Positions 20,177 to 61,468 of a DNA stretch of 64,000 nt are shown here, one piece after another. The DNA comes from Adenophora triphylla var. japonica. Its lineage: Eukaryota; Streptophyta; Magnoliopsida; Asterales; Campanulaceae. The DNA is taken from NCBI GenBank assembly GCA_022495995.1, contig JAFEMH010000161.1, positions 682,001 to 746,000 of the forward strand. Reading direction: 5' to 3'. The notes below the pieces were generated by a model. It was not told the DNA's origin, made no database searches, and saw only the letters and a list, made by a program, of their open reading frames with translations. Made by a program: the position numbers and the translations under genes. The first letter of the stretch is position 1; every line of letters begins with the position of its first letter.

Positions 20177-20726
20177 TGAAATTACCCGGATTTCGCGCGC
20201 GGCGAAAGCGGTTGTCTTTCGCGGAGGGTTGGTGTCTGAGACCTCGCTTCATGGGAAGGAACAAAATGAGGAGTCGCCACGCGGTTTTTGTATTTTGAGC
20301 CCAAACGTTGAGAAACGACTTATTGAAAATGGTGTCGTTTTTATTGGTAGCAAAAACTTAGGAAAAGGCTTTTGAAAAAGGGGATCATTTTTATTGGCAG
20401 CAAAAACGAGTAAAAAGCTTTTAGTACCAGAGATTGTTAGGTTCGGAGGTCAGGTTACGTTTCGGGTAGAGTATTACGAGATCGCCCGAAACGCCTCGCA
20501 TGACGAGTCTTTCTACCTTTCTCGAAATCGTGTGTGTGTGTGTGCGTGCATGTTTTGAAATGGGGGCTTGAATGACAAGCTTAATCTTGGTTTGAATGAC
20601 AAACGTTGATTATGTGACTTTTGAAAAGACGAGCGTTTGAATGACAAACGTCGGTTTGAGTTTGAAATGAGCGTTTGCGTGGCAAACGTCGATTTTGAGT
20701 TTGAAATGAGCGTTTGCGTGGCAAAC
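20177..20726 (-). repeat. LTR fragment of element B (Tat-lineage, inverted)
   Basis: Read on the minus strand it is the last 550 bp of an LTR related to, but not the same as, the LTR of element A. It has the two-hairpin module (20458-20507), the conserved GTAACCTGACCTCCGAAC, a GTGGCGACTC copy and the end CGGGTAATTTCA at 20177. It contains TG repeats at 20528-20546 and duplicated GCGTTTG...TGGCAAAC units (20630-20726). Element A starts where it breaks off. Confidence 0.7.
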
Positions 20727-20920
20727 TGTAAGTACCCCAATCTGGATCACACCCTTTCAAACACACGGGAAACACCGCAGACTCATCAACACAGTCTCGA
20801 CGACCCCTCTCACTCAAAACCCTCTCTAAACCCCCAACCAAACCAAGGGAGGAGCCTTTCTGGGATAAAAGGGACAAAAGGACCTTTTGGGAATTTTCAG
20901 GAAATTGGGAAAGCAATACT

Positions 20921-21172
20921 GGTCCGTACGGACCTCTTTGTTGTCATAATTACTGAATCTTCTTAAAGTCCACAATATTCCCTCAAATCTCGGGGAAAAT
21001 GATTACTCCCTCACAGAGTTCAGTCCGTACGGACCTCTTTGCATGCAAGATGGTCCGTACGGACCTTATTGCTCAGGGGACACCATAATTGCAAATATTC
21101 CTCCATCATCACAGATTCCCTCAAATCGAGGAAAACCAAAAGTCTGGATTACCAGGGAGGTCCGTACGGACC
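20921..21172 (+). promoter_or_regulatory. Four palindromes upstream of the LTR TATA box
   Basis: GGTCCGTACGGACC lies at 20921-20934, 21052-21065 and 21159-21172, with a near copy AGTCCGTACGGACC at 21022-21035. Three are followed by TCTTTG (two by TCTTTGCA). The last ends 21 bp before the TATA box. A shared binding site is the simplest reading. Confidence 0.7.
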
Positions 21173-21193
21173 TCTTTGCACCAAATCTGGCAC

Positions 21194-21201
21194 TATAAAT
21201 A
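21194..21201 (+). promoter_or_regulatory. TATA box of the element A 5' LTR
   Basis: TATAAATA in GGCACTATAAATAGAGGGC. The same sequence is at 37913-37920 in the 3' LTR. Confidence 0.75.
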
Positions 21202-21874
21202 GAGGGCTCCCCCTCCTCATTTTCACACACCTCCCACTTCTCTCTTCCTCCCTAGGCCTTCTGGCTTCCCTTCTAAGTCCTTCCGAGGCATTTCCGGCCC
21301 CTTTCGGATCCTTCCGAGGCCTTCCGAGCCCCCTCGTGGTGCTCCGAAGCCTCCCCGAGCGCTCCCGAGACGCTCCCGCGCTGCCCCGAGGCACTCTCGA
21401 GGTACTCTGAGGCCCCTCGTGGTACTCCGAGGCCTTGCCTGGTCTTTCCACGGTGTCCCGGCTCTTTCCGAGTCAAGCGGCGATCCCAAACCACGCCGAA
21501 ACTCCGCCCGAGTGACTCCGCCACCACAACGCACGCCGAACCTCTCGCCCGAGTGATCCCAGCGATCCCCACGCACGCCGAACCTCTGCCCGAACGCATC
21601 CTGCAACATCAACTCACGTCGAAACTCCGTCCGCGTACAACCGCATCTCCCGAAGCAATCCCGATCCGTGCAGGAACGCTACTCCGACCTCAAACACTAT
21701 TCCCCAGGCGGAAGACAAGACACGAACCAACATTGGTAAGGCTTCCTTCCATTACTATTTCAATAAATTTCCATACATAGCATACAATGTAGACATCCGA
21801 TACAAAGATGCATTTTTAAAAGCACACACACACACACACACAACATTTAAAGGATATTAGGGGTATCCGAAAGA

Positions 21875-21954
21875 CTCGTTTTTTACGAGGCTACTCGGGT
21901 GAGCTCTAATATTCTAATATTCTCTTCCCGAGGAGTCATCCGACCTCCGAACTC
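21875..21954 (+). ncRNA. Two-hairpin structured module near the LTR end (element A)
   Basis: Hairpin 1 is CTCGT (21875-21879), loop of T, ACGAG (21885-21889). Hairpin 2 is CTCGGG (21894-21899) paired with CCCGAG (21927-21932). The conserved box CGACCTCCGAACTC follows (21941-21954). The same layout recurs in four other LTR copies with changed but still paired stems. It would be part of the transcript leader. It is a structural call, not a known RNA gene. Confidence 0.6.
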
Positions 21955-22036
21955 AAAATCTCATCACACAAAAACAGTTTAAAATTATCTTTAAGCGATG
22001 CCCTTTTTCAATGTTTTGGGCTTAATAAAAACGGCG

Positions 22037-22045
22037 TGGCGACTC
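22037..22045 (+). other. Internal copy of the PBS core in the LTR
   Basis: TGGCGACTC inside the LTR, 108 bp before the true PBS core. The same duplicate is present in the related LTRs of B, C and E, with one change in A'. Confidence 0.6.
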
Positions 22046-22144
22046 TACAAATGCGAAAACAAACGGCGAGACAAACCGCTCCAACGCGAAAGACTGCCAG
22101 ATGCCGGGGCCGCGAGGCCTTTCTCGGATCCGGGCTATTTCAGT

Positions 22145-22162
22145 TGGCGACTCATTGAGGGA
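22145..22162 (+). other. PBS of element A
   Basis: TGGCGACTCATTGAGGGA starts two bases after the LTR end. Its first nine bases are the same as those of the PBS of family E (TGGCGACTCCGCTGGGGA), a form common in Tat-lineage elements. Confidence 0.65.
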
Positions 22163-23486
22163 AAATTTTGTTTTAAAAACTTTTAAACAAAACAAAAAGA
22201 TTTTTAAAACGATGATGAGGGTCAAACTTTCATTTTACCCCTTCCTTTAAGCGTTGTGTGTGTGTGCACGTGCTTCGTTTTTATTTTACAAAAAAAAAAT
22301 AAAAATACAAAAAAAATGCATCAATATACATATGTTCATACATTTAAAATTCTTCAAAAACTTCTGTTTTACTCAGAAAAAGAATTTTAGAGACCGCACA
22401 CTACGCGCTTCTTTGCCTCGGTTACACCGCACACTACTCACTGTATTCTTTGCTTTGGTTACACACTGCACGCTACGCGCACTTTGCCTCGGATACACCG
22501 CACACTACAACCCTCAACCGGAGTGGTCTCGGTTGCAGTCCGTTAGGTCTTCCTAGGCCTCTTGGACGCGCACGGGATCATTCCAAACATCCCATCCTAG
22601 CCAAGCGTCAACCCCACACGTTTGAGTCTTGAGTCACACTCTGTCCGGACTCGGTTGGTTTTTACCCGGTCAGTGTCATACGGCTGGATACATATACCAT
22701 GCCGGCCATTTTTCTCGAGTCAAGGCTCGGAACTCAAGATCCCTTGCGCAAGAAGCGATGAAAGGTCATGCTAAAATCTTGACTGATCTTGATTTCCGAA
22801 GCTACACCCAGCACGATGTTCCGTCCCGGATATACATCCATGCTCGCATGACACCATGTCATCACGCCTTTGATACGTCGGCCATGACAATATGACCCGA
22901 CCAACGCCTAATGTCACGAGATCCCTTGCGCAAGCAAGGCAAGAGAGGTCATGCCGAACTCTTGACCCGATCTTGACTCGGTGGCGACTCGGTTCACTAT
23001 TCACATGGCTAACGCATCAAAACGAACATGACAGGCTCGGTCCTTAGGTTCGATTTTTCTTTTAGGCCGGTGGAAACCGCTTGCACTATAGGACCCTCGC
23101 TGACAGTCCGCACCTGGGATGTCGAAATACGGGTGCAAAACGAGGGGCTTATAGCCGCACGGATGGTCTCCGGCGGACCCGGGATCTAGCATAGTTGCGA
23201 AAAACAAGAGCAATCTTTTCCAACCTACCTAGGATTCTGAGAAAACATGTTTTAAGTAAATTAAAACAACAAAAAAAATCAAAAATAAAAGAAACGGAAA
23301 CCGCATGCCACGTGAGCTTTCCCCTTTTATCCCGTTAGGCCATTCCCGTGTCTAAACCTTGCCCGTCACCCCCTCCAGCGAACCGAGAGTGGTTGAGAAT
23401 ACCCGGGAGCCGCCTTTTCAGTATCGAGGTCACAAGGTCCGATAGCCCTTCCAGTTCAACGGTCCGCACCGTCCGATACTCCCCCA
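22163..23486 (+). other. Leader of element A with internal repeats
   Basis: No ORF. Three loose 50-bp copies with CGCACACTAC...TTTGC-TCGG-TTACAC lie at 22388-22510. A duplicated block with the palindrome CTTGCGCAAG (22743-22752 and 22925-22934) and GGTCATGC...TCTTGA lies 182 bp apart. Confidence 0.6.
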
Positions 23487-25210
23487 TGACGGGATCAACA
23501 GATAACAGTGAGGGAAACGGAACCCCGCCACTAAGGAATCTCCAGACAATGGAGGAGGTGCTGCGAGCCTTCGAAACCATCAAGAAGCGCCAAAAAGAAC
23601 AGCAAGCCTGGATCGTCGACACCCTGTGTCTTCGAGGAACAGTTGCAGTTCCTCAGCCTGACGGGACCTTTGTTCTCATAGAGGACGAAGACATACCGGC
23701 TCCCCCGGTCTCTCAAAGCTATCAGCAAGTTCCGCCTCCGCCAAGCTACGAGACCCCAGCAACGCAAAGCAGCTCTCGCTCAAAGCTCCTCTCGGGCGTC
23801 GGTCAAGCGGCTCCGACATGCCCGCCTCGGCACGGTCGGTTTCCGGCTCTGCACACCAAGCTCGGTACCAACGGCACACATACGTGCACGCTCCGCGAGA
23901 TCCCAATGCATCTCGGTATCCCCAGATTCAATCCTTTGCCTCTATACGAGCCTCGCAATCACAATCAAAAAGTCCCCATGCTTACCAGGGATAGGCATCC
24001 CGAGCGGATATCCCGACATCTCAAGCTTGCCACCTGCTAGTCTCCCAATTGGGGCTAACGAATTATTTCCCCAGTTCCCAAACACAACCCTTAGCGGACT
24101 GGCAATCACGCCCTCAACTTCAACACCCCGGGGTATGGGTTGGTATACACTCAACTACCTCCCCAAGACTCCCGAATGGCGATCCCATCGCCCAATCCAC
24201 CCCCATCTTCGGTTTCCGTCCCCGAAAACGGTAACCCACCTCGCATGCAGTGATCCTCACATGGCTTGGCTGATCGAACAAATGAAAGACATGCAAGGCA
24301 AGCTAGCTAGTTCTCGGAAGGACTCCCTCCTGCCTCTTGATCCGAACAAAGTGGTCCCTCTCCCTCCAAAGTTCAGATGCCGGAAATGGAAAAGTTTGAC
24401 GGGACAGAATGCCCAAAACCCACATAGACACCTACGTCCTGGGTATGAGAGCCAAAGGGGCAACCCTCAACGGATGGCGGATCACTTTCGGCATTCCCTC
24501 AAATCCACAAAGCACTAAGGTGGTTCCTCAATGTGAAGGCGTAAAACCGCTCCACATGGGATCGGATCGGTGAAATCTTCTGGAGAAGTACCGCGCCAAC
24601 CTTGAATGGGAGACAAACCACCATGACACGCAAGCCACCGAACAAAAGGATGACGAACCGGTGGGCGAGTTCTACAAAAGATGGAACTGGAAGCTAAGCG
24701 AGATAATGGATCCACTTTCCAAAGAAGAAGCAGATGGACATCTTCCATTCCCGCCTCAAGCCATCTTTGAGGACCTTGATCGGCCACCATTTCTATCCGG
24801 ATCTCCGTGCCATGGTCAACGCCGGGACAAAGTTTGAAAAGACTCGAGTCTTCAAAAGGCAACAACAACCCCCGCCTCGTCTTACCGTTATCGAACAAAC
24901 ACAGCAACTTCAACCCCGCCCGACCAAAGGAAAGGAAGCCAGGAACGATGCACTACATTCGTAACGGAGCTCAAGTAAACCGCGATCAAGCGGCCCCGAA
25001 GGAATAACAATCCCCTCGCTTCCCACAAGTTCCCAAAGATTTAGATAACTGGAAATGCCCTTGGGTCAAGTATTTGAAGCTTTGGTGAAGCGAAATCTTC
25101 TCAAACCACTCGAGAATTTCCAACCGAAGACTCTCAAACCCAACATGGATATGAGCAAACACCGCGCTCTTCCACAACTACCCCGGCCACACCACCGACA
25201 ATTGCTTCGT
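23487..25210 (+). pseudogene. gag of element A
   Basis: ATG at 23487 starts MTGSTDNSEG. An amphipathic helix follows (EEVLRAFETIKKRQKEQQAW), then a Pro-rich linker (about 23690-24240). The capsid-like part begins near 24360 (VVPLPPKFRC...) and passes through several frames to about 24900. The variant knuckle CxxHNxxxHxTxxC (FHNYPGHTTDNCF) is at 25163-25207. Gag forms the particle that packages element RNA. Frameshifts near 24385, 24430 and 24640 break it. Confidence 0.7.
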
Positions 25211-25599
25211 ACTCAAGCGAGGTGGTCCAGGGCTCATTGAGGAGGAAAATTGGAACGCCCTCGTGGTCCCAATACCATCGGAAATCCATTCCCCGAACGA
25301 CAGGTAAACTCAATAGCCTTTGACGAAACTCCAAGCGAGAGCGGACCCGCAATTTCCGAAACCGTCGGCATGCTTTGTCCCGCTACGGCCCGGGAGCGTG
25401 AAACCGCAGTCAAGAGATTTCGTGACCGGGAATTCCGACAAGAACGCCCAAGGGCCACCGTCTCCCTACGATCTTTGCCCCACCAAGGCATATAAATGGA
25501 TGGATCGAACGTTCCCGAAGAGACCGAGTCAAACGGTAGCACGGGAAGCGGTTTAGCCTTCATGATGATGACTTGCCAATATGTGAGAATCGGCACAAC

Positions 25600-26000
25600 G
25601 AAGCCCTCCTCATCCTCATAAAAATAGAGATGTTCTTCCTCCCGAATGTCTTGATTGATAACGGCTCCGCAGATCAACATCATCGCTTTGAGCACACTGG
25701 CTGAAACGACTCCGCATCGATCGTTCTGCGATAAGGCCTTCACCTCGGGTAATCCGAGCCTACGATTCCACCGCACGACCAATCGTAGGAGTCATCAATC
25801 TAAGGATCCAATTCGACGTACAACCGGAGTCGGTAGAGTTCCAAGTCGTGGAAATCAAACCAACCTTCTCTCGCTTTGTTGGGACGACCTTGGATACATC
25901 GATGAAAGCAGTATCATCTACTCTTCACCAATGCGTGAAATTCATCAATGCCAACGGAGCAATCGAAGTGATCCGCGGAAGCGGTGCAATGGCAAGTGCT
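25600..26000 (+). pseudogene. Protease of element A
   Basis: VLIDNGSAD at 25648-25674 is the Tat-type retropepsin active site (DNGS form). It is followed in other frames by RAYDSTARPIVGVINLRI and MKAVSSTLHQCVKFI, the C-terminal part of the protease domain. The fragments are in different frames, so the protein is broken. Confidence 0.65.
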
Positions 26001-34375: not shown

Positions 34376-34470
34376 GCATTTAAACCTGGTCAAAACCTGG
34401 GAACTGTAAAAACCAACTTGGTCCGTACGGACCTCTTTGCAACTGTGTTGGTCCGTACGGACCTCTTTGC
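34376..34470 (-). promoter_or_regulatory. Promoter of antisense gene 1: paired palindromes
   Basis: GGTCCGTACGGACC at 34420-34433 and 34450-34463, centres exactly 30 bp apart, each followed on the plus strand by TCTTTGCAA or TCTTTGCAAC. A TATA-like TTTAAATGC on the minus strand (34376-34384) leads to the ATG at 34265. Confidence 0.6.
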
Positions 34471-34574
34471 AAGGGGTGACCAAATTACTTTCCCGCCCTT
34501 ATAATCTTTGCCCCCGGCCGTCCTAAGGCCTTTTCCAAAGAAATCCAAGTGCAGAATGGTCCCTAACCCTTCAA

Positions 34575-35735
34575 TTCAATCCCCGGCCATCAACGTAAGA
34601 CCGGTCCTCGCCCACTCCAACGGCAATTCAATCCCCGGCCATCAACGTAAGACCGGTCCTCGCCCACTCCAACGGCAATTCAACCACCGGCCGTCAGCGT
34701 AAGACCGGTCCTCGCCCACTCCAACGGCAATTCAACCCCCGGCCATCAACGTAAGACCGGTCCTCGCCCACTTCAACGGCAATTCAACCACCGGCCATCA
34801 ACGTAAGACCGGTCCTCGCCCACTCCAACGGCAATTCAATCCCCGGCCATCAACGTAAGACCGGTCCTCGCCCACTCCAACGGCAATTCAACCACCGGCC
34901 ATCAACGTAAGACCGGTCCTCGCCCACTCCAACGGCAATTCAACCACCGGCAGTCAGTGTAAGCCCGGCCCTAGCCCCACTTTAACGGCCTTAACCTGGC
35001 AGCCGCCGTAAGCTCGGTCTTAGCCCCGGCTCAGCAGCAGCCTTCCAACGGCAATTCAATCCCCGGCCATCAACGTAAGACCGGTCCTCGCCCACTCCAA
35101 CGGCAATTCAATCCCCGGCCATCAACGTAAGACCGGTCCTCGCCCACTCCAACGGCAATTCAATCCCCGGCCATCAACGTAAGACCGGTCCTCGCCACTC
35201 CAACGGAAATTCAATCCCCCGGCCATCAACGTAAGACCGGTCTCGCCACTCTAACGGCAATTCAATCCCTGGCCATCAACGTAAGACCGGTCCTCGCCAC
35301 CTAACGGCAACTCAATCCCAGGACGTCAACGTACGACCGGTCCTCGCCCACTCCAACGGCAATTCAATCCCCGGCCATCAGTGTAAGACCGGTCCTCGCC
35401 CACTTCAACGGAAATTCAACCACCGGCCATCAACGTAAGACCGGTCCTCGCCCACTCCAACGGCAATTCAATCCCCGGCCGTCAACGTAAGACCGGTCCT
35501 CGCCCACTTCAACGGCAATTCAATCCCCGGCCATCAACGTAAGACCGGTCTCGCCCCACTTGCCAACGGTAATTCAATCCCCTGGACTGGCCAACGTAAG
35601 ACCGGTCTCGCCCACTCCAACGGCAATTCAATCCCCTGCCATCAACGTAAGACCGATCCTCGCCCACTCCAACGGCAATTCAATCCCCGGCCATCAACGT
35701 AAGACCGGTCCTCGCCCACTCCAACGGCAATTCAA
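34575..35735. repeat. Tandem repeat, 52-bp unit, about 22 copies
   Basis: The unit holds CCCCGGCCATCAACGTAAGA then CCGGTCCTCGCCCACTCCAA and CGGCAATTCAA. The exact 52-bp period is seen at 34581, 34633 and onwards. Two diverged units lie near 34958 and 35010. Point changes and one-base deletions rise between 35180 and 35340. The ORFs through it are not genes. Confidence 0.9.
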
Positions 35736-35945
35736 GAAGGAGCCAACACCTCCCAGTACGAATATCAAGGCACGAGACGCCTCCCAAAATGCCCGACGGC
35801 AATTCAAGAAGGAGCCAACACCTCCCAGTATGAATATCAAGGCACGAGACGCCTCCAAAACGCCCGACAGCAATTCAAGAAGGAGCCAACACCTCCCAAA
35901 GACGAATATCAAGGCACAAGACGCCTCCAAACGCTCAACGACAAC
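35734..35945. repeat. Tandem repeat, 71-72-bp unit, three copies
   Basis: Starts at 35734, 35806 and 35877 (AAGAAGGAGCCAACACCTCC). A fourth, isolated copy is at about 36198. It grows directly out of the last 52-bp unit, sharing CGGCAATTC. Confidence 0.85.
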
Positions 35946-36414
35946 TCAACCATCGGCCTCAAAGGAGGTCCGAAGTCATCTTCCCAACAAAAAGGGCCCC
36001 CTACAAGGACATGCATCCCCAGCATTCAAGCACCGACAAACAGGTAAGCCCGAACCTCGCCCACTTCAACGCCAACGCAAGCACCGGCCATCAAAGTAAG
36101 CCCGAGCTCCTCCCCAACAAGTCAAAGCGGAAGTCATACAAGACTGCATATCCTCAAAGACCGACCATCATCCTTGCCCACTCAACGGCAAAACAAGCAC
36201 AAGAAGGAGCCAACACCTCCGAGTACAAGTCCCAAGGCACGAAGCGCCTCCAAAATGCCAAATGGGGAAGCAATCACCGGCCGTCATCCTTGCCCACTTC
36301 AACGGCAGCGCAAGCACCTAAGCCATCGTAAGTCCAACCTTCTACTCAACATGCAAAAACACAAAGGCATCTACGCCTCGCAATCAAAGCACAAGGCAAC
36401 CATGCTTCCACAAT

Positions 36415-36910
36415 CGCGGCTAGAAGACGATTCAAAGTCTCGCGCATTACATCAATCATGCTAGAAGACGATTCAAAGTCTCGCGCATTACATCAATCAA
36501 GCGGCTAGAAGACGATTCAAAGTCTCGCGCATTACATCAATCAAGTGCTAGAAGACGATTCAAAGTCCTCGCGCATTACATCAACTGCGGCTAGAAGACG
36601 ATTCAAAGTCCTCGCGCATTACATCAACTGCGGCTAGAAGACGATTCAAAGTCCTCGCGCATTACATCAACTGCGGCTAGAAGACGATTCAAAGTCCTCG
36701 CGCATAACATCAACTGCGGCTAGAAGACGATTCAAAGTCCTCGCGCATAACATCAACTGCGGCTAGAAGACGATTCAAAGTCCTCGCGCATAACATCAAC
36801 CGCCGCCAGAAGACGATTCAAAGTCCTCCAGCGTGGCACAAACCGCAGCCAGAAGACGATTCAAAGTCTTCAAACATGGCGCAACCGCAATCAGAAGACG
36901 ATTCAAGTCC
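36415..36910. repeat. Tandem repeat, 43-bp unit, twelve copies
   Basis: TAGAAGACGATTCAAAGTC marks starts at 36421, 36462, 36506, 36549, 36592, 36635, 36678, 36721, 36764, 36807, 36850 and 36892. The last three are the most diverged. Confidence 0.9.
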
Positions 36911-36964
36911 TCACAACTATCTCCTACTTAAGGCCTTAAACCACCCGATTAGGAAAATCGTAAA

Positions 36965-37454: not shown

Positions 37455-37953
37455 CGTAAGTACCCCAACTGGATCACACCCTTTCAAACACACGGGAAAC
37501 ACCGCACTCATCAACACAGCCTCGACGACCCTCTCACTCAAAACCTCTCTAAACCCCCAACCAAACCAAGGGAGGAGCCTTTCTCGGGATAAAAAGGGAC
37601 AAAAGGACCTTTCGGGAATTTTCGTAAAATTGGGAAAGCAATCGGTCCGTACGGACACCTTTGTTGTCATAATTACCGAATCTTCTTAAAGTCCACAATA
37701 TTCCCTCAAATCCCGGGAAAATGATTACTCCTGCAGAGTTGGTCCGTACGGACCTCTTTGCATGCAAGATGGTCCGTACGGACCTTATTGCTCAGGGGAC
37801 ACCATAATTGCAAATATTCCTCCATCATCACAGATTCCCTCAAATCGAGGAAAACCAAAAGTATGGATTACCAGGGAGGTCCGTACGGACCTCTTTGCAC
37901 CAAATCTGGCACTATAAATAGAGGGCTCCCCCTCCTCATTTTCACACACCTCC
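37455..37953 (+). repeat. 3' LTR of element A, first 499 bp
   Basis: It is nearly identical to 20727-21232, with four palindromes (37644, 37741, 37771, 37878) and the TATA box at 37913-37920. The first base pair is CG instead of TG. It is cut at 37954 by the Copia element. Confidence 0.8.
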
Positions 37954-39390
37954 TGTTGGTCCCAAAGGTGACAACAAGGGTGAAAATACAGCTAGAGGGG
38001 GGGTGAATAGCTGTATAAAATTTTTCGCCCTCAATTTAAAACTAAACCTCTACGCTTACAAAACCTCTTGCAAAGCGTATAAGAAACTCGCAAGTAGAGT
38101 TGTAAAATGCACAATGAATATACTTAATAAAATGCGGTTTTGAGAAGGCGGCAAGGCGGTTTTAGTGCAATTTTCGAGCAGCTTGTAAACCGAAAGTGTA
38201 GTTTGACTATGTTAACTCCAAACACAATTTCACAATAAAGGATAACTATATAAGATCAAACAGAGAAAAGGAAGATAATCAAGAAGCACAAGAAATATAA
38301 ATGCGTAAAGTAAGAACACAATATTTGGAGTGGTTCAATCGATAAACGATCTACGTCCACTACCAAGATGGTTAGTCTTGGATTTCTAAGAGAGATTTTA
38401 TATCAAGTATTTGAGAGATTACAAAGTACAATAAAATCTTTACTATGAAGAACAAATCCAAAACTATAACCAAAGTATCTCAAATGAATAAACTATGTGT
38501 TTAGACAAGAGAGGTGTGTGTGTGAGAAACAAGATCAAGGCTCTTTAAATCTGTGAGATATAGAGCTCAATGATTCTTGAATGTGTTAAGGCTTGATTTC
38601 GGGCCGGGAATATTTCTTGAAGTATGAAGATGAAGATTCAAAAGACTAAGAATTTACTCGGGGCAGAGCTTCAACTTCGATGATCACAAAGAATTTCTCA
38701 ATATTTCAAGCAATCTTCAAATGGTGAAGATTGGGGGTATTTATACCCAAGCATCTCAAATATACCCGTTGGACACACTGCTCAAGGACAAGACTTGATG
38801 CTTTCCCATTGGTCCACCGATATCCACTTTTGTCCTTTAGAGCCGTTGGTGCAAGAAAGCCGATCGACCTCACCCGCAATCAAGGTGGTTAGGACATCTG
38901 TCACCTTTATGAGATCTTTGCAGATCTCGCTTCCGACATTGGGTCACGTGACAATATATGGTGGTTGACATTTAATATTGCCGACGTGGATTCCAAGGGA
39001 TAAAAGGATCACTTCAAGAAGTCAATCATTGGGGCAGCTGGGGCAAGCGGTTTGACAAAAGGCGGTTCCACCGTAAGAGGATTTCCAAAAGTGCAGTTTG
39101 CACTTGATTGATCAAGCGGTTTCAGATGAGAGGAATCTCAAGGCAAAAGGCGGTTCTGCCAAGCGGTTCAAAAAGGCGGTTCAGAACCCTTGAAACCGCA
39201 ATCCTAAAATCCAATGATTCTTGAGCCGCCTTCAAGCCTAAATTTAACCTATTCTATAAAATGGACTTAGCTAAAAATTGAAGTCTAAGCTTCATTACAT
39301 AGGGTCCTAAAGTCCTTAAAATAAATAGGAGGTCATGGTATCAATCAAATCTAATACAAAATAGGAGGGTTAAAATATGCATACCCAACA
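37954..39390 (-). repeat. 3' LTR of Copia 2
   Basis: TGTTGGTCCC...TACCCAACA, 1437 bp. TATA on the minus strand (GTATAAATAC) at 38738-38747. It differs from the other LTR by many substitutions and small indels, so the insertion is not recent. Confidence 0.9.
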
Positions 39391-50172: not shown

Positions 50173-50186
50173 TTAGCTCGATACCA
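50173..50186 (-). other. PBS of Copia 2
   Basis: On the minus strand TGGTATCGAGCTAA follows the LTR end by two bases. It is a variant of the initiator-Met tRNA site TGGTATCAGAGC. Confidence 0.8.
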
Positions 50187-50188
50187 CT

Positions 50189-51616
50189 TGTTGGTCCCAA
50201 AGGTGGCAACAAGGGTGAAAATACAAACAGAGGGGGGTGAATAGTCGTATAAAATTTTTCGCCCTCAATTTAAAACTAAACCTCTATACTTACAAAACCT
50301 CTTGCAAAGGTGTAAGAAACCGCAAGTAGAGTTATAAAATGCACATCGGAATAATGAAGTTACAAAGCGGTTTTGAGAGAGGCGGTTTTGCAAGCGGTTT
50401 GATAGTGAGGTTTTCTCGAAAGTGCGGTTTGCAAAAGTGAAGTCTAGACAATGTTAACTCCAAACACAATTTTCACAATAAGGATAACTATATAAAGATC
50501 AAACAAAGAAAAGGAAGATAATTAGCAAGCACAAGAAATATAAATGCGTAAAGTATATGAACACAATATTTGGAGTGGTTCAATCGATAAACGATCTACG
50601 TCCACTACCAAGATGGTTAGTCTTGGATTTCTAAGAGAGATTTTATATTGAGTATTTGAGAGATTACAAAGTACAATAAAATCTTTACTATGAAGAACAA
50701 ATCCAAGACTATAACCAAGCAGATCTCAAATGAATAAACTATATGTTTAAACAAGAGAGGTGTGTGTGTGAAACAAGATCAAGGCTCTTTAAATCTGCGA
50801 GATGTAGAGCTCAATGATTCTTGAATGTGTTAAGGCTTGATTTCGGGGAATATTTCTTGAAGTATGAAGATGAAGATTCAAAGGACTTATGAATTTACGG
50901 GTGAGCTTCAACTTCTCATGAACACAAAGAATTTCTCAAGATTCAAGCAATCTTCAAATGGTGAAGATTAGGGGTATTTATACCCAAGCATCTCAAATAT
51001 AGCCGTTGGATACAAATTGTAAGGACAATACTTGATGCAATCTCATTGGTCCACAACACCCACTTTTGTCCTTTAGGAGTGTTGATGCGGTAAAGGCGAT
51101 CGGACCTCATTTGCAATCAAGGTGGTTAGGACATCTCGTCACCTTTATGAGATCCTTGCGGATCTTGTACGAAAAGTAATCACGTGACAAGATATGGTAG
51201 TTGACTTTTGACATTGCTGACGTGGATTCCAACGGTCAAGTGAGGTTCACTTCAAGTAACCAATCATTGGAGCGGTTCTGGAGAAAGGCGGTTCCACCAG
51301 AGAAGGATTTCCAAGTGCGGTTTGCACTTGTTGTTCAAGCGGTTTCAGATGAAGGGAATCACAAGGCAAAAGGCGGTTACGCCAAGCGGTTCTAAAAGGC
51401 GGTTCTGAAACCCTTGAAACTGCAATCCTAAGATTCAATGATTCTTGAGCCAATCTTCAAGCCTAATTTTAACCTATTCTATAAAATGGACTTAGCTAAA
51501 AAATTGAAGTCTAAGCTTCATTACAAAGGGTCCTAAATTCCTTAAAATAAATAGGAGGTTATGGTATCAATCAAATCTAATACAAAATAGGAGGGTTAAA
51601 ATATGCATACCCAACA
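50189..51616 (-). repeat. 5' LTR of Copia 2
   Basis: TGTTGGTCCC...TACCCAACA, 1428 bp, TATA (minus) at 50974-50983. About ten GCGGTT words lie in the outer and inner parts. Confidence 0.9.
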
Positions 51617-52267
51617 CCCGGCCCTTTCCGAGCTCAACAGACGATCACGACGCATGCCGAAACTCTGCCCGAGCACAACCGACGATTACAACACACGATG
51701 AACCTATGCCCGAGCACAACTAGCGATCCTAACGTAAGCCAAAACTTTTCCCAAGTACTCACCTGACAATCTCGAGGCACTCCGAAGCTCTGTCCGCAGA
51801 CACCGGCACGTCCCGACGCCATCCCGGTCCGTCCCGGAACACTATTCAACACTCAAACACTATTCCCTAGCGGAAGACAGACACGAACCAACATTGGTAA
51901 GGCTTCCTTCCATTTCAATACATCTCAATACGCAGTGTACAATGTAGACATTATATACAACATGCATTTTTAAAAGCACACACACACACACAACTTTTAA
52001 AGAAAGAAGGGGTACCGAAAGACTCGTTTTTACGAGGCAACTTGGGCGCACATTTACTATGCCATTCCTGAGGAGTAACCTGACCTCCGAACTCAAAATC
52101 TCATCACACAACAGCAGTTTTTTAAACTGAGCATTTTCTCAATATTTTGGGCTAAATCAAAACGGCGTGGCAACTCTACAAGCAAAAAACGCAGCGACAC
52201 ACGGTCTCGACTGACCAGATGCCAGATGCCGGGGCGCCCGCACGCCTCTCGGATCCGGGTAATTTCA
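51617..52267 (+). repeat. 3' part of an element-A-type LTR (A')
   Basis: It aligns with 21457-22142 of the element A LTR to the end CGGGTAATTTCA, but with many more differences than the part left of the Copia element. The two-hairpin module is at 52023-52094, with wobble pairs in hairpin 2. The PBS-core copy reads TGGCAACTC. It may not be the other half of the LTR at 37455-37953. Confidence 0.65.
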
Positions 52268-53372
52268 GACAAAGCGTGCCATTGGAAAATACATATGCAA
52301 GGTCGCGCGACATTGTTAGCCACTCCCATGCAGCTATAAATTGAGGCCTTCTTCTCCCATTTCGGGATCCCCTCTCGACCCCTTACTGTCACTCTGCCAA
52401 AATTGGCGTAAATAAACAGTAAACACACACAAACACACACCAATTCTCTCTCTCTCACACACAATTCAACACACACTTCACACACACATATTGAAGCTTC
52501 TAAACTGGATCTGATTTGAGTTCTAATCCTGGTTTCGAAGCTGATATTAGAAGAATTCTATACCCAACTTGGTATAGAATTAGAGGACTTCAAGGGTAAC
52601 ACTCTCTCCCCTTCCTTCTCCCTCTCATCCTTTACCATTCATGCAAAATATATATTGCTTAATCTGCTAATTACGCTTAATCCGAGGCAATTAGTGTAGG
52701 ATTTCAATCGCAATATCTCTGTTTAAATCTGATTCAGTAGATTGTTCATTGTTACATGTTATTGTATGTTTATAAGTCAATTTTGATATATGGTGCATGA
52801 TCATCAAGATGGGTGTGGATCTCTCATATCCACACTCTCTTGAATGTTGTCTATTGATCTATGTGATTTCTGAAATGTATATTTGGTCTTATTCGATCTA
52901 GATTGTCTTTTGTTTGTTCTGCAAATAAGTTCTGTTAAGTCTCTGCAGACTGGCTTGTTGTGTCATGCGACACACTTTGCCAGTCCATGTCCTATGTCAC
53001 GCGACAACATTAGCCAGTTTGCAGAAACGCTCTTCCAATTGTAATCTGTTCTTAGTTTTTGTAATCGGGATGTGGCCCCCCACACCAAGTGGCTCGCAAA
53101 TTGTATTTTTCTCAGTTTATCAATAAAAGCAAAGCACATAAACACATTTCTGTCTCACACATTTGCACACACATTTAAATGATATTGGATGTTTTCATTG
53201 AAAGACTCGTTCACGAGGCGTGTTGGGTGAACTCTCGGTTCTTCCCAACATGTAACCTGACCCCCAAACTCTCTCTCTGATTTCAAAAGGTTATTCAATG
53301 TTTAAAATGGTGTGGCGACTCTTTTTATTATTTACATATTTCCCGTCCCATTTCCAAAACTATATTTTCATA
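52268..53372 (+). repeat. LTR of a further related family (C), probably solo or truncated
   Basis: TATAAATT near 52334, GTCGCGCGAC at 52302-52311 and related GTCATGCGAC / GTCACGCGAC at 52962 and 52996. The two-hairpin module (53206-53250), AACCTGACCCCCAAACTC and GTGTGGCGACTC (about 53311) follow. It ends near ATATTTTCA with no PBS after it. The start is not defined. Confidence 0.5.
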
Positions 53373-54175: not shown

Positions 54176-54195
54176 CGTTCCCAGCAATGGAACCA
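54176..54195 (-). other. PBS of remnant D
   Basis: TGGTTCCATTGCTGGGAACG on the minus strand, two bases after the LTR end ...GCATCA. It parallels element 1. Confidence 0.65.
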
Positions 54196-54197
54196 AC

Positions 54198-54913
54198 TGA
54201 TGCTGCACGGAATATGTTGATCAACCTACGTCCAGCAATTAGGATGATCACCTGGATTTATTGACCTAAAACCAACGAATACACGACTAGCCGGGATGGT
54301 CTCCGACTAAGACCCTCCGGCGTGAGAGTAAGTATCACGTGTTTAGCTTATGAACTATAATTAACTGAAAGGAAATCAATTGAATATCAAATAAGGCATT
54401 ACCTTTTAACGTTGGCTATTGTGAGGTATTTATAGACTTAATAAGAGATTGAGTTGGCGTAGGATTGTACTGAATCCCGAAGATCTTGGAGAGAATCGTG
54501 GACGTAACTGACTCTGTGATTTTAGGAAGCTGTTACGAAAAGAGTTCTAGTCGTGCTACGCCTCTGTAGGTCGTGGTCGCCCGAGTAGATCAAGGTCGAC
54601 CTGACTTTGCACTATAGTCAGATATAATTTGTACAAGGAGATGATCGTATGTCGGACAAAGCTAGGTCAGAACCAATGATGGTTGGACAATGAGCTAGGT
54701 CGACTGATCTTCGCCCCGGCCCAGGCTATGGGCCTTATAATAACTGGGTCGGTCTACTTGATGACGCTGCTGTAATAACGTCTGAATAATTAGGCTTAGT
54801 ATGTTGGGCCTAGCCCATCACATTTATTCCGTTCAGTGGACCCCAACTTTTTGAGTTGACTTTGTCGACCAGGATGTTATAAAAAGTTTGATGAAACCTT
54901 AGGTAGATCGTCA
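54198..54913 (-). repeat. LTR of remnant D
   Basis: The inner end is TGATGC (plus strand). TATA on the minus strand (CTATAAATA) is near 54430. An ACTCTCACGCCGGAGGG block matches the ACTCTCACACCCGAGGG block of the element 1 LTR. It ends at or is cut by family E at 54914. Confidence 0.6.
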
Positions 54914-55029
54914 TGTTAGCGATGCGTGAATTTTGAATAACAGAGTCGCCACTTATTATTTATTTAGGAAAACAATAAGAAAAACCTTATTTATTTAAAA
55001 GAGATTTGAGGGTTCGGGGGTTAAGTTAT

Positions 55030-55077
55030 GGAATGGGTAGGTCGAGGAGCATCCATTCCACCCGATCCGAAGATCGG
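55030..55077 (-). ncRNA. Two-hairpin module of family E LTR, with UUCG tetraloop
   Basis: On the minus strand hairpin 1 is CCGATC-TTCG-GATCGG (55062-55077), the stable C(UUCG)G type. Hairpin 2 is GGAATGG paired with CCATTCC (55030-55036 and 55053-55059). CTTAACCCCCGAACC follows. In the right LTR (59464-59510) hairpin 2 is intact and hairpin 1 is weakened by two changes. Confidence 0.6.
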
Positions 55078-55754
55078 TCTTGCCAATTGAGTATTATCAA
55101 TCTTTTTAATATAATAATTAAAGAATAAGAAAACTCTAATCAATTTCTTGATTAGGAATGTCGGATTATATGCTTCGAGATCGCCTTCATCGATTGAAGG
55201 GACTCTAGGCCAATCCTTTTGATGGGATTACACCACTCTAAAAGCCAATAGAGAGAGATTGAGAAGAAGAAGAGAGTAAAAGTATAGGAATTTACCTAGC
55301 GTTTAGAGAGTATTTGATTTAGAACGTGGTTTTAAGATGTCTTTTCGGTCGAGAAGTGATTTTGGCAGAGTTTCGACTCAATATGAGAGTCAAATCTTGA
55401 TACGGACAGAGCTTCGCCTCAATCCTTGATTCGGGTTTGGATGTTTGTTGATCAACAAGGTTGATAAACAAACTTTAGGTGATTTTAGGGAGGTTTTGTG
55501 AGTGATTTGAAGGAATCTTTCGTGGAGAGAAACCAACAAATTGTGTGTGTTGTGTAGAATTCTGGACCTCTGAAACAGTGGAAGTCACCAAGTATTTATA
55601 GGGGTTTAAGAGGTAGAGGTGGAGAGGTAAAACACTCCTAGGAAGCTTCCAGAACTCAAATTCTATTGGATGACCGGATGGGATAAGATTTTATCAAGAA
55701 AAGAGTTTGAAACGGAGAAGGAGAGTGATTTCTGCACATCCTGTCGAGGGGATA

Positions 55755-55785
55755 TCTCGCGCGAGACACGCTATTCCGCACGAGA
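55755..55785 (-). promoter_or_regulatory. Paired CGCG palindromes upstream of the family E TATA box
   Basis: TCTCGCGCGAGA (55755-55766) and TTCCGCACGAGA (55774-55785), centres 19 bp apart. The right LTR has the same pair at 60186-60197 and 60205-60216. Confidence 0.6.
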
Positions 55786-56269
55786 TAACTAGTCAAATGA
55801 CCGTTTTTTCCTCTTCAGTTGTTCCGTTAGTCAGTTAGGTCCAAAACTAACGAGGTTAGTTAGAAACTTAATGAAACATGACGAAACTGATATGCTTTCA
55901 TCAAAACATAAAAGAGAGATGAAGAGTAGTGTAATCATGAATTATTGGTTCAGAATGGGGTGTCTACAGAGCCCCTCGGCGACAAGACTTATGGAAGAAG
56001 TCATGTCGTCGATAGAAAAGACATCATTCTGAACATTGGGATGGTCGTGCCGCACGGCTGCCTACGTATCTCTAAGAGAGAATCAGACCAAATGTAGTTC
56101 GACTCCAAAACACTAAAAAGGTTATTTTTGGTATTTTGAAAAGCATTTTTGAAAATCAATTTTGAAAGAGAGAAAGGTAAGATCGTACTGAGGAATCAAG
56201 GACTTGACCCAATTCTGATGATACCCAGTTTGTTGATGAAGTTGTTGAAGTGCGCCGTCCGAGGTTACT

Positions 56270-56520
56270 GACGTAGCTTGTTGTTGCCGAGGTCACGGAC
56301 TTTGTTGTCGTTGCCGAGGTCACGGACTTTGAAGTTTGCTGCCATCACAGACTTTGAAGATGTTGCCGAGGTCACGGTCTTGAAGTTTGCTGCCGTCACA
56401 GACTTTGTTGATGTTGCCGAGGTCACGGACTTGAGGTTGCTGCCATCACAGACTTTTTTTTGACGTTGCCGAGGTCACGGACTTGAAGTTGCTACCATCA
56501 CAGACTTTTGAAGTTTGTCG
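56270..56520. repeat. Short tandem repeats in family E LTR
   Basis: GTTGCCGAGGTCACGGACT alternates with GCTGCCATCACAGACTT units, about six rounds. The copy in the right LTR (60710-60950) has small deletions. Confidence 0.75.
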
Positions 56521-57042
56521 GTTGAGGTGGAGGTTTTGTCGGCCCCTGTAATGCAAGGATATATGCACGCTGGTCTCGGATGGACCCGAAACGATTCTTA
56601 CCTTTCTGTACCTGCTAGCACATAAAGATTCCAAGTAGATTTTTCCAGATTTTAGTTGTTTAACTGGACTTACGTGGTGGTGCTCACGTCTGTTCGTGCA
56701 AATGGCCGGTCGGACATTTTGGTGGTGAGTTTATGTATGAGCATATGGTGTATGGAAATGTAGGGACATTTGTATGGATTTATATTTGAGATGGGTGAAC
56801 TGTATGAGTGAACTTGTGTTTGACAAGTTGGGACCAAATCAGGTTTATGCAGAATCTGTTGCTAGTCAGCAAGGCTGTATTGTTTCTTCATTGTTATAGG
56901 ATTTTGATGAGTAACCTTGTGTGAATACATCTAGGTCTGTTGAGAATTTTCATTCTTACTTCTCCTTGAGTCTTGTCTCTAGGAGGCAAACGACTACACA
57001 TCTGTTGACTGTCGTAATGGCTTTATGTCTAAGGCCCTTTGG

Positions 57043-57808
57043 TTTGTTGTTTGGTTTGTTCAAGATCCCTCCTAGTAGGGCGATAAGTAGAGTTATCTTC
57101 AAACTGCCTTTAGAAGACTAAACATGCGGATGACCAATCAAGCCTTGTAGTCGTAGGAAGAGACATGTACCAATCCCTTGCAGCACCTTCTAAAGTTTGA
57201 GGAAAGCATTGGGCCAAGATTGTGTTATCAACGCCCATAGGAAGCATAGCCCAAGTGTAGGTCTCAACATGAGCTCGAGGACAGGTAGTACCATTGAACT
57301 TGGCAATATCGGGTGTCTTGTACTTGAGAGGAAACTTAGTGATGGATTGTTGAAGAGTATCGGGATCAAATGGAACGAATGACCCTTTGGAACTGTCAAG
57401 AGTTGCAAGCTTCTTTTCGAGGTAGTTCTTAGTAACATGGTTACCAAGTTTAGTAGTTTCACCACTGCCTTCTTTCTTGGTTTTAGCACCATTAGAGGTA
57501 TGTTCCTCATCATCGGAGGAGGATGAGGAAGAGGAGTAATCTGATTCTTCCTTTTTCTTACTTGACTTCTTGGTTTTTCTATTCACTTTGGTGTAGGATT
57601 CCTCTTCATCGGAGGAGGATTCCACTTTCTGCTTTTGCTTTCTTCCTTTCTTGACTTTCAAATCATTGAGTTCTTTCATGAGGGCGGCCATTTGGGCGTT
57701 TTGTTCCTCAATTTGCTTACTTTGTTCATCCATCTTAAGCAGAGTTTGGATGAGTTGGGCCTTAGCTTCGTTGATATCGGCCTCGTTGGTAGAAGAAGAA
57801 GCAGACAT
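57043..57808 (-). pseudogene. gag of family E, truncated at both function and structure
   Basis: Start MSASSSTNEADINEAKAQLI. Then a coiled coil (to about residue 50), Lys/Ser/Glu-rich disorder, and the capsid-like domain (FPLKYKTPDIAKFNG, VDNTILAQCFPQTLEG). A TAA at 57110-57112 stands where the sister copy has CAA. Coding similarity continues to about 57043, where the sequence jumps into the LTR at a short shared CAAAC. Confidence 0.8.
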
Positions 57809-58879
57809 CGTGTCGAGCTTTCACGATGGACCTAGACGTGTAGCAACCGTGTTAAACCATGATCGAGTCCCAACAAGTCGGCTGAATAGGGTGTATGAAG
57901 GCTTTGAAGGTTTGAATGTTTTGGCCAAAACACGAAAAGACCGAACACTTATCTCGCACGGGACAAGCAGTCTCGCGCGAGACAATACCACGGAAAGTCA
58001 CAATTTTCTGATTTTAATCCTAATTTTGGTCAGACGGAAAATCCATTTTGGGGGTTTCTAACGTTCAGAATCCAAGCCTAAGGGCCTAGGGGTCGAAGTA
58101 ATCTCAAGTAACATCGAGTTTTGTACAATAAGTTTGGTGAGAAATTTTTCACTTTTTAGGAGCAAATCTGAAATGACAACCGTAGGGACATTTCCGAAGC
58201 GACAATTCCCAAGCGACGATTTTTTGATTTCTTTTCCATGGTTTATTGCACAAAACAAGATCTTGACAATGAATTACAAGGACTCCAAGATCAAACCGAC
58301 CGGTCACGGAGTGTCTTAAAAAGTCAATCTACATGATATGTGGCAATGCAGGGCTGGAAGGCTAGGCTCCCCGCGATATGACAATCTAGATGGATTGAAT
58401 ACGCGGAGTGGGATGATCCAACTTCGGAGAGACCAGCGACTAGGTGGTTACCGTCATCCGTCCTTAGTGTGGGTCCCGAGTTTATAGAGGGTATGTAGTG
58501 CAATGACAGTTATAATATGAGTGCGCGTGTGTGAGAGTCAATCTAGGTGATAGAGTAAATTAGAAAGTTTTTTTTTTTTTGAAAACTAAAAGAAAAACAG
58601 AAGTGGCCGCACAAAGTGGTTGCCTACGTTTCTCCTAAATTAGGAAGACTCAGGCCGTCGTAGTTCCACAAAAAGAGAGAGAGAGAATAAATTAATTAAT
58701 TACAAAGCCCGAGTCAACCGATGACCGGTAAAAATCAAAATAAATTCAATCTCACGCAAGTACATAATTTAAGTACTTAAAATTATTCTACCCTGCAAAA
58801 TAAAGTTAGCATAAGCAAAATAAAATAATAACATTTATTTTGATTTTTCTGGATTTATTTTGAAGTTTTCTTGAAACCT

Positions 58880-58915
<36 letters not shown>

Positions 58916-59328
58916 TACGGAACATGGATGAAAAGTCCATTGACTTAACCTCCTCTTTTTTTAAAAAAAATTGCTGAGTCAAAGCTTTTAAAGGAAAAGT
59001 CATCTGTTCAAAAAAAAAGACCAAGCTTGGCGGCTGAACCCCTTTTCCTATTTTTTTTAAATGGGTCAAACCTTGAAAACAGGTGAAACCCTTTTCTTTA
59101 ATTTAATGCCAAGCTGCTGCCGCCAAACGCAGGTTCCTTTGTGCGAATGTTAATCTCGCGCGGTATTAGTTATCACGTGCGGGATAAACAGTGGCACATC
59201 AATTTTTTTTTGACGAAAACAGTGTAGAAAAATTTCAAAAAAAATCCAGAAAAATCAAATTTTTGCAGAAAAATAAAAAGATTGATAATATTCAATTGTA
59301 ACGCAAGTCTAACCCTCTTAATTAACTG
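57809..59328 (-). other. Leader of family E element
   Basis: No gene. It holds two more palindrome pairs: 57952-57963 with 57971-57982, and 59154-59165 with 59173-59184, each 19 bp apart. A T run of 34 lies at 58881-58914. ORFs near it are homopolymer artefacts. Confidence 0.6.
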
Positions 59329-59346
59329 TCCCCAGCGGAGTCGCCA
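59329..59346 (-). other. PBS of family E
   Basis: TGGCGACTCCGCTGGGGA on the minus strand, one base after the LTR end CGCTAACA. A second GTGGCGACTC lies inside the LTR, 39 bp away (59377-59385 on plus). Confidence 0.8.
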
Positions 59347-59347
59347 C

Positions 59348-61468
59348 TGTTAGCGATGCGTGAATTTTGAATAACAGAGTCGCCACTTATTATTTATTTA
59401 GGAAAACAATAAGAAAAACCTTATTTATTTAAAAGAGATTTGAGGGTTTGGGGGTTAAGTTATGGAATGGGTAGGTCGAGGAGCATCCATTCCACTCGAT
59501 CCGAAGATCCGTCTTGCCAATTGAGTATTATCAATCTTTTTAATATAATAATTAAAGAATAAGAAAACTCTAATCAATTTCTTGATTAGGAATGTCGGAT
59601 TATATGCTTCGAGATCGCCTTCATCGATTGAAGGGACTCTAGGCCAATCCTTTTGATGGGATTACACCACTCTAAAAGCCAATAGAGAGAGATTGAGAAG
59701 AAGAGAGTAAAAGTATAGGAATTTACCTAGCGTTTAGGGAGTATTTGATTTAGAACGTGGTTCTAAGATGTCTTTTCGGTCGAGAAGTGATTTGGGCAGA
59801 GTTTCGACTCAATATGAGAGTCAAATCTTGATGCAGACAGAGCTTCGCCTCAATCCTTGATTCGGGTTTGGATGTTTGTTGATCAACAAGGTTGATAAAC
59901 AAACTTTAGGTGATTTTAGGGAGGTTTTGTGAGTGATTTGAAGGAATCTTTCGTGGAGAGAAACCAACAAATTGTGTGTGTTGTGTAGAATTCTGGACCT
60001 CTGAAACAGTGGAAGTCACCAAGTATTTATAGGGGTTTAAGAGGTAGAGGTGGAGAGGTAAAACACTCCTAGGAAGCTTCCTGAACTCAAATTCTATTGG
60101 ATGACCGGATGGGATAAGATTTTATCAAGAAAAGAGTTTGAAACGGAGAAGGAGAGTGATTTCTGCACATCCTGTCGAGGGGATATCTCGCGCGAGACAC
60201 GCTATTCCGCGCGAGATGACTAGTCAAATGACCGTTTTGTCCTCTTCAGTTGTTCCGTTTGTCAGTTAGATCCAAAACTAATGAGGTTTGTTAGAAACTT
60301 AATGAAACATGACGAAACTGATATGCTTTCATCAAAACATAAAAGAGAGATGAAGAGTAGTGTAATCATGAATTATTGGTTCAGAATGGGGTGTCTACAG
60401 AGCCCCTCGGCGACAAGACTTATGGAAGAAGTCATGTCGTCGATAGAAAAGACATCATTCTGAACATTGGGATGGTCGTGCCGCACGGCTGCCTACGTAT
60501 CTCTAAGAGAGAATCAGACCAAACGTAGTTCGACTCCAAAACACTAAAAAGGCTATTTTTGGTATTTTGAAAAGCATTTTTGAAAATCAATTTTGAAAGA
60601 GAGAAAGGTAAGATCGTACTGAGGAATCAAGGACTTGACCCAATTCTGATGATACCTAGTTTGTTGATGAAGTTGTTGAAGTGCGCGTCAGGGTTGCGCG
60701 TAGCTTGTTGTTGCCGAGGTCACGGACTTTGTTGTCGTTGCCGAGGTCACGGACTTTGAAGTTTGCTGCCCACACACTTTGAAGATGTTGCCGAGGTCAC
60801 GGTCTTGAAGTTTTTGCTGCCGTCACAGACTTTGTTGATGTTGCCGAGGTCACGGACTTGAGGTTGCTGCCATCACAGACTTTTTTTTGACGTTGCCGAG
60901 TCACGGACTTGAGAGTTCTTGCCATCACGACTTTTGAAGTTTGTCGGTTGAGGTGGAGGTTTTGTCGGCCCCTGTAATGCAAGGATATATGCACGCTGGT
61001 CTCAGATGGACCCGAAACGATTCTTACCTTTCTGTACCTGCTAGCACATAAAGATTCCAAGTAGATTTTTCCAGATTTTAGTTGTTTAACTGGACTTACG
61101 TGGTGGTGCTCACGTCTGTTCGTGCAAATGGCCGGTCGGACATTTTGGTGGTGAGTTTATGTATGAGCATATGGTGTATGAAAATGTAGGGACATTTGTA
61201 TGGATTTATATTTGAGATGGGTGAACTGTATGAGTGAACTTGTGTTTGACAAGTTGGGACCAAATCAGGTTTATGCAGAATCTGTTGCTAGTCAGCAAGG
61301 CTGTATTGTTTCTTCATTGCTGTAGGATTTTGATGAGTAACCTTGTGTGAACACATCTAGGTCTGTTGAGAATCTTCATTCTTACTTCTCCTTGAGTCTT
61401 GTCTCTAGGAGGCAAACGACTACACATCTGTTGACTGTCGTAATGGCTTTATGTCTAAGGCCCTTTGG
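59348..61468 (-). repeat. Right LTR of family E, shared by two units
   Basis: 2121 bp. It serves as 5' LTR of the left unit and lies 3' of the gag at 62984-64000. TATA (minus) at 60023-60032. Confidence 0.8.

Follow-up and report, generated by a model that had tools for sequence, protein, structure and literature searches.

The 64,000-nt window analysed here, positions 682,001 to 746,000 of contig JAFEMH010000161.1 in the Adenophora triphylla var. japonica assembly GCA_022495995.1, contains the ends of several retrotransposon long terminal repeats (LTRs), assigned to elements A, A′, B, C and E. These LTR ends share a compact module. Where both hairpins are kept, an AAGA-like lead is followed by hairpin 1, one G, hairpin 2 and a conserved box; TGGCGACTC, mostly in the form GTGGCGACTC, comes 42–163 nt past the box and is followed, where visible, by the LTR end and the primer-binding site (PBS). 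The five modules described in an initial annotation of this DNA all lie where that annotation had placed them and in the order given there, before the box and GTGGCGACTC (GTGGCAACTC in A′). A sixth is found in the second (right) LTR of element E (59444-59518, minus strand). As set out below, the two hairpins almost certainly form a selected RNA structure, which would likely help to dock the primer tRNA. The features are as follows.

21875-21889, plus strand: A hairpin 1 (CTCGT / ACGAG), seen in the sequence and as a model match
21891-21935, plus strand: A hairpin 2, arms 21891-21899 and 21927-21935, with one A-G mismatch
21936-21955, plus strand: A box, whose final 8 nt (21948-21955) are the complement of the tRNA T arm
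22036-22045, plus strand: A in-LTR GTGGCGACTC, which includes the first 9 nt of the PBS
22145-22162, plus strand: A PBS, diverged beyond its first 9 nt, 2 nt past the LTR end (22142)
52023-52036, plus strand: A′ hairpin 1
52038-52075, plus strand: A′ hairpin 2, with two G-U pairs through CpG decay
52076-52095, plus strand: A′ box
52167-52176, plus strand: A′ in-LTR PBS-like motif GTGGCAACTC, one change
53206-53217, plus strand: C hairpin 1
53219-53252, plus strand: C hairpin 2 (CGTGTTGGG / CCCAACATG)
53253-53272, plus strand: C box
53312-53321, plus strand: C in-LTR GTGGCGACTC
20495-20507, minus strand: B hairpin 1
20458-20493, minus strand: B hairpin 2, a 9-bp stem CGTTTCGGG / CCCGAAACG
20438-20457, minus strand: B box
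20271-20280, minus strand: B in-LTR GTGGCGACTC
55062-55077, minus strand: E left LTR hairpin 1, CCGATC[UUCG]GATCGG
55029-55060, minus strand: E left LTR hairpin 2 (TGGAATGG / CCATTCCA)
55009-55028, minus strand: E left LTR box
54943-54952, minus strand: E left LTR in-LTR GTGGCGACTC
59463-59511, minus strand: E right LTR hairpins 1 and 2, two hairpin 1 pairs broken
59443-59462, minus strand: E right LTR box
59377-59386, minus strand: E right LTR in-LTR GTGGCGACTC
59329-59346, minus strand: E PBS TGGCGACTCCGCTGGGGA, 1 nt past the LTR end (59348)

The 5′ LTR of A spans about 20728 to 22142. For E, 54914-57043 matches 59348-61469 at 97.8% identity and 57039-57460 matches 63579-64000; the right LTR (59348-64000) is interrupted at ~61470-63578 by other sequence.

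Thirty stretches of 10 kb from the same 2.48-Gb genome were added to the window, giving a sample of 364 kb, which was searched with a covariance model built from 15 module sequences. The search returned 26 modules at E < 1e-4—six in the window and 20 new—and four weaker matches (E 0.005–0.64). One of the 26 (L009:9934-) is truncated by the end of its stretch and another (L023:8165-) is without hairpin 1; the left and right E copies (El and Er) are the two LTRs of one element, and L020 and L021 probably likewise. From stem and flank we assigned nine lineages: A, B, C, C2 (L031), C3 (L020/L021), D (L015:9555, L025 and L037:703), E, F (L022 and L023:4124) and F2 (L038 and L009:9934-). Across the genome, allowing up to one mismatch, the box matches 58,192 sites against 1,354 for the reversed pattern, and a second box form, matched exactly, at 21,809 sites against one. 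An exact-pattern scan of viral and prokaryote contig collections revealed no relatives: the box matched once among viral and five times among prokaryote contigs, the hairpin-1 pattern once and the PBS pattern once, and all eight matches were judged chance from their flanks. A plasmid similarity search gave three weak Borreliella matches and nothing else. Two incomplete arrangements were seen in the sampled stretches. A B-like copy (L024, 6452-6490, minus strand) has hairpin 1 and a shortened box with hairpin 2 missing, possibly a natural deletion; in L036 (~4095-4255, plus strand) the box, in-LTR motif and PBS are present and unrelated hairpin-less sequence stands directly before the box, looking as though another insertion broke in exactly there.

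Among the lineages, hairpin 1 takes the forms CTCGT/ACGAG, CTCGTC/GACGAG, CTTGC/GCAAG, CCGATC/GATCGG and CCC/GGG, and hairpin 2 stems vary more. The initial annotation described the stems as changing together. Hairpin 1, however, is replaced there only in E; A, A′ and C share the same stem and B differs by a wobble. Nor are the two wobbles in hairpin 2 of A′ (CTTGGG/CCTGAG) compensatory: they are what C-to-T decay at the CpG of A's CTCGGG/CCCGAG yields, and A′ was therefore discarded as evidence of covariation. Within the window alone, the case for selected pairing is modest, with two of 120 permutations of the hairpin-2 arms (the true one counted) matching the true score; it became strong once the 20 further copies were added.

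In a 15-sequence alignment made without reference to structure, 96.5% of 199 cells were paired and 7 of 14 pairs displayed two-sided change. A second alignment (30 matches, 28 distinct rows), which is biased towards structure by being fitted to the model, had 94.8% of 327 cells paired and two-sided change at 10 of 13 pairs; its covariation score of 0.489, against a maximum of 0.130 with slid partners, was reached by none of 500 shuffles. The four weak matches entered this alignment only and stand outside the tree, 9-mer, T-arm, loop, openness and permutation counts. Swapping 3′ arms among the nine lineages, one copy per lineage, equalled the true pairing total in only 2 of 362,880 permutations (the true one counted), the corresponding numbers being 720 for hairpin 1 alone, 6 for hairpin 2 alone and 288 in purine/pyrimidine letters, which are insensitive to C-to-T decay. 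The initial annotation had named covarying pairs in a larger alignment as the test of its claim of selected RNA structure; in the shuffle-based version used here, not R-scape itself, the alignment passed, and together with the arm permutation this bears the claim out.

Phylogeny and homology search pointed in the same direction. On a tree of 23 of the 26 copies (leaving aside two duplicate rows and L023:8165-), computed from the box and its downstream sequence, 7 same-branch compensated changes were counted; the nulls averaged 0.9, and not one in 1000 reached 7. In purine/pyrimidine letters the pairing fraction passed on the same copies (0/2000). A structure model from which lineage E had been held out recovered all four E copies (43.3, 40.4, 37.6 and 29.5 bits), as opposed to 15.4 and 15.6 bits and two missed copies with a sequence-only model of the same alignment, a comparison tempered by the two sets of bits not being strictly on one scale (the effective sequence numbers differ). 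The covariance model thus finds, in the same genome, a lineage it had not seen, and does so through structure. In 7 of the 26 copies (C2, D and E) hairpin 1 is capped by a UNCG loop with a C-G closing pair, in two by the one-letter variant UNUG and in another two by GAAA. Loops of the UNCG and GNRA types favour RNA over DNA folding, so these loops argue for an RNA structure; a DNA cruciform alone, with which the pairing is compatible, was rejected on that ground. Taken together, we regard it as near certain that the two-hairpin module is a selected RNA structure, maintained by compensatory change.

Several further candidates were set aside. Free-energy z-scores of the six window copies (−0.85, 0.55, −2.63, −1.5, −1.43 and −0.92) were weak evidence; an inner stem within the hairpin-2 loop is not claimed, with 76% of cells paired and three of four pairs deviating only by breaking; and a ribozyme or other known RNA family was rejected, as Rfam 15 gave no match at gathering score across the window and none to E 10 at 21850-22200.

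The initial annotation had placed the module in the R-U5 leader of the transcript, and the predicted position agrees with a leader. A CTATAAA box lies 449–1195 nt upstream of the module in 12 of the 26 copies, drawn from six of the nine lineages (A, B, C, C2, E and F2); the CTATAAA of A′ lies outside its own LTR fragment and was left out of the count, and none was seen for C3, D or F within the ≤1200 nt examined. A wider TATA pattern, which also admits CAATAAA, precedes 16 of the 26 copies as compared to 324 of 2000 random stretches. Being downstream of CTATAAA boxes, the module is predicted to be transcribed as part of the 5′ leader of the element RNA.

The greater surprise lies in what follows the box. 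The initial annotation had treated GTGGCGACTC as a plain landmark; the motif is present, but it holds the first 9 nt of the PBS. A complete 18-nt PBS (≤2 changes allowed) is visible in 7 of the 26 copies and is diverged in A; its sequence is TGGCGACTC[C/T]GCTGGGGA, with a single change in one copy. All 26 copies have its first 9 nt again after the box, exactly in 24 and with one change in two, and wherever the LTR end is visible this repeat lies inside the LTR. Exact TGGCGACTC occurs 34 times in the 364 kb, where a simple equal-base estimate predicts 2.8: eight occurrences are PBSs, 25 fall within 330 nt after a box, and one is neither PBS nor in-LTR. That sole exception (22981-22990, plus strand) is an extra GTGGCGACTC ~830 nt downstream of the PBS of A and possibly there by chance. 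Looked at from the PBS side, all eight sites of this type have a second copy of the 9-mer ≤300 nt upstream, exact in seven and altered by one change in the other; none of eight sites of the iMet (initiator methionine tRNA) type, defined by a 12-mer, repeats its own 9-mer.

The box itself appears to address another part of the same tRNA. The PBS fixes nt 59–76 of the primer, and T-stem pairing together with the near-universal T loop then gives CUGGGUUCR for nt 49–57. Against T-arm nt 50–57, a stretch that does not overlap the PBS-paired nucleotides, the terminal 8 nt of the box are paired in 200 of 208 cells (0.96; wobbles counted, R taken as G). Slid by one position, the paired fraction drops to 0.62 or 0.50, and the best alternative place within 12 nt reaches 0.72. 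The eight pair-breaking cells are G-to-A at the second place (three copies) and A-to-T at the last (five copies). The box end therefore has the sequence hallmarks of a primer activation signal (PAS), a leader stretch of ~8 nt that complements the T arm of the primer and is separate from the PBS, the T arm here being inferred from the PBS. Eleven places in the genome carry the T arm plus acceptor end predicted from the PBS, against none for the reversed control, which fits a small tRNA gene family; no tRNA gene lies in the window or the 30 sampled stretches. The primer may be a tRNA-Arg, which would agree with tRNA-Arg being among the primers of non-chromovirus elements (PMC6317226).

As for the elements that carry the module, an A-type element in stretch L015 has, after its LTR and PBS and on the same strand, a frame with G-patch and reverse transcriptase (RT) domains. 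The frame ends before the place of an additional RNase H, and this is the sole module-bearing element with a pol domain in the scanned frames. The Pfam domains of P0001, its best match, include RT, RNase H and RVT_3, the last appearing in some best matches only. A related pol in L038 has RT_RNaseH, RVT_3 and an integrase; the LTR of that L038 element was not seen. The carriers are likely Ty3/gypsy retrotransposons, and the RNase H and RVT_3 domains of the L015 best matches and of the related L038 pol point to the Tat clade of plant Ty3/gypsy. Two carriers look non-autonomous: A likely so, because none of 18 plus-strand open reading frames (ORFs) scanned in its interior matches Pfam, and E likely so, because only ~1.9 kb separates its LTRs.

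Other features of the window deserve mention. Inside element A are tandem arrays of ~52-bp and ~43-bp repeats (34463-36114 and 36461-36914); Tat-type elements have tandem arrays in the stretch from pol to the 3′ LTR. A 12-kb element that contains Ty1/copia-type domains and has LTRs 86% alike lies between a piece matching the start of A's LTR and the A′ piece (37456-37953, 37948-39390, 50183-51616 and 51617-52268). The flanking pieces resemble one split LTR, yet their divergence differs too much for that, with a 95% match to A's LTR start versus 75% (A′) to A's LTR end. Of 30 window ORFs scanned against Pfam, three, all from other elements, gave matches, the domains being RVT_2, gag_pre-integrs plus Pol_BBD, and RVT_1; the RVT_1 match (7091-8011, minus strand; E 7.7e-24) belongs to another, unclassified element.

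Among the roles that the initial annotation had listed for the module, primer tRNA loading fits best, given that GTGGCGACTC contains the 9-nt PBS start and that the end of the box complements the T arm. Whether this compensatorily kept structure in retrotransposon LTR ends does act as a primer-tRNA docking site in the predicted leader is, in our judgement, evenly poised. In such a scheme, transcription would start at the TATA box ~450–1200 nt upstream, placing the module in the 5′ leader; annealing of the last 18 nt of the tRNA (59–76) to the PBS would open the T stem, and the freed nt 50–57 could be caught by the 8-nt box end, as has been proposed for the anti-PAS of tRNA-Lys3 in HIV-1. The stacked hairpins might keep the box accessible and fixed in position close to the start site, and the in-LTR 9-mer might be a first landing place for the acceptor end, or a second holding place or one for a second tRNA. 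The most specific version—a two-point tRNA clamp in Tat-like leaders, with a hairpin-stacked PAS on the T arm and an in-LTR PBS start passing the acceptor end to the PBS—is one we put forward tentatively, rating it somewhat below an even chance.

Several observations weigh against a selected docking site. The T loop is nearly identical among tRNAs, and by a rough estimate a chance 8-nt match between a 17-nt box and a tRNA, wobbles included, has a probability of 1 to 25% depending on the strictness of pairing. Changes within the 8-mer are mostly C-to-T opposite G, which keeps a wobble automatically. Predicted openness is middling (mean unpaired values over 23 copies of 0.63 for the 8-mer, 0.41 for the in-LTR 9-mer and 0.49 for the whole segment). 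A PBS copy inside the LTR could misdirect the second strand transfer. Finally, with respect to the structure itself, the same-branch test fails when run in purine/pyrimidine letters on the 23 copies, 785 of 2000 nulls having as many flips as the one seen.

We consider it possible, if unlikely, that the module is instead a packaging or dimerisation signal, its hairpins being bound by Gag or seeding RNA dimers and the match between box and tRNA being incidental. Signals of this sort commonly have stacked hairpins close to the PBS, structure is retained here while sequence changes, and a shared signal would give A and E, which look non-autonomous, access to a helper's particles. However, this reading leaves both the in-LTR PBS start and the T-arm match unexplained, and the loops differ among lineages, with no common kissing loop apparent by eye. 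The in-LTR 9-mer might also be a relic, that is, an older PBS engulfed when the LTR grew by priming further downstream. Consistent with this, where the PBS is visible, the sequence from the 9-mer to the LTR end ranges from 29 to ~180 nt and looks dissimilar from one lineage to the next, and A has its further GTGGCGACTC downstream of the PBS; yet a relic should decay, and the 24 copies that keep all 9 nt, over nine lineages and despite differing flanks, make this improbable. We place slightly less weight still on a processing signal controlling polyadenylation or translation of the long leader: [C/T]AATAAA 77–107 nt upstream of the module in 8 of the 26 copies (A, C, C2, D and F2; a pattern counted without a control) and A-rich AATAAA-like stretches just ahead of the in-LTR motif in A, B and E would suit it, but AATAAA is missing from some copies at both places and such a signal offers no reason for identity with the PBS start. 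That there is no selected structure at all, only shared ancestry and CpG decay, deserves almost no credence: all copies are related, C-G to T-A swaps are possible through decay on both strands, the A′ wobbles are such decay and the purine/pyrimidine same-branch test is not significant, but the purine/pyrimidine arm permutation, the tree-based null, the recovery of the held-out lineage via structure and the choice of tetraloops in hairpin 1 all speak against it.

Known retroelement signals resemble the proposed docking site in part. The HIV-1 PAS (nt 123–130) lies in U5, upstream of the PBS. A passage of PMC3185550 places it downstream. There the PAS is described as an 8-nt contact besides the PBS, with the T arm or T loop of the primer tRNA as its partner; the same source has U5, upstream of the PBS, pairing in HIV-2 with the 5′ part of the T stem, and reports failed complementation and competing models for the HIV-1 PAS (PMC3185550). 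Like the PAS of HIV-1 and Rous sarcoma virus (RSV), the 8-mer described here complements the T arm of the predicted primer and lies apart from the PBS; unlike them, it belongs to an LTR retrotransposon and stands at the foot of a two-hairpin stack. We know of no retrovirus with an in-LTR copy of the PBS start. Yeast Ty3 has a bipartite PBS, a short 8-nt acceptor-end site plus a second tRNA contact elsewhere (PMC11381356). The in-LTR 9-mer is similar in size to that 8-nt 5′ PBS, whereas the second Ty3 site is at the other end of the RNA. The PBS here is not split in this way: the 18-mer is complete in all 7 of the 26 copies with a visible PBS, and its start is repeated in the LTR (a 3′ site outside the LTR was not sought).

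With respect to plant elements, dimerisation and packaging signals are retained in autonomous and parasitic members of BARE, a barley Ty1/copia element and hence of another superfamily, with no structure or covariation described in the portion of the source at hand (PMC3735527). The Tat clade (Ogre, Retand, TatI-III) comprises non-chromovirus Ty3/gypsy elements marked by an additional RNase H, and non-chromoviruses use several primers, tRNA-Arg included and tRNA-Met not among them; the available excerpt describes neither an LTR-end RNA structure nor an in-LTR PBS copy (PMC6317226). Within the open-licence literature, a scope that most subscription papers lie outside, we found no earlier report of the module. 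It thus appears to be a previously unreported variant of known retroelement leader signals, likely one for primer docking.

If true, the clamp would give plant Ty3/gypsy elements their first leader RNA structure supported by covariation and would make the PAS common to retroviruses and plant retrotransposons; should the T-arm contact prove real, primer activation by an LTR leader would either predate retroviruses or be more general than they are. A large share of big plant genomes consists of such elements and, to our knowledge, little has been established about the choice and loading of their primer tRNA or about the competition of non-autonomous members for helper machinery. Being short and recognisable by a model, the structure would provide a direct handle on both primer loading and the competition between non-autonomous elements and their helpers.

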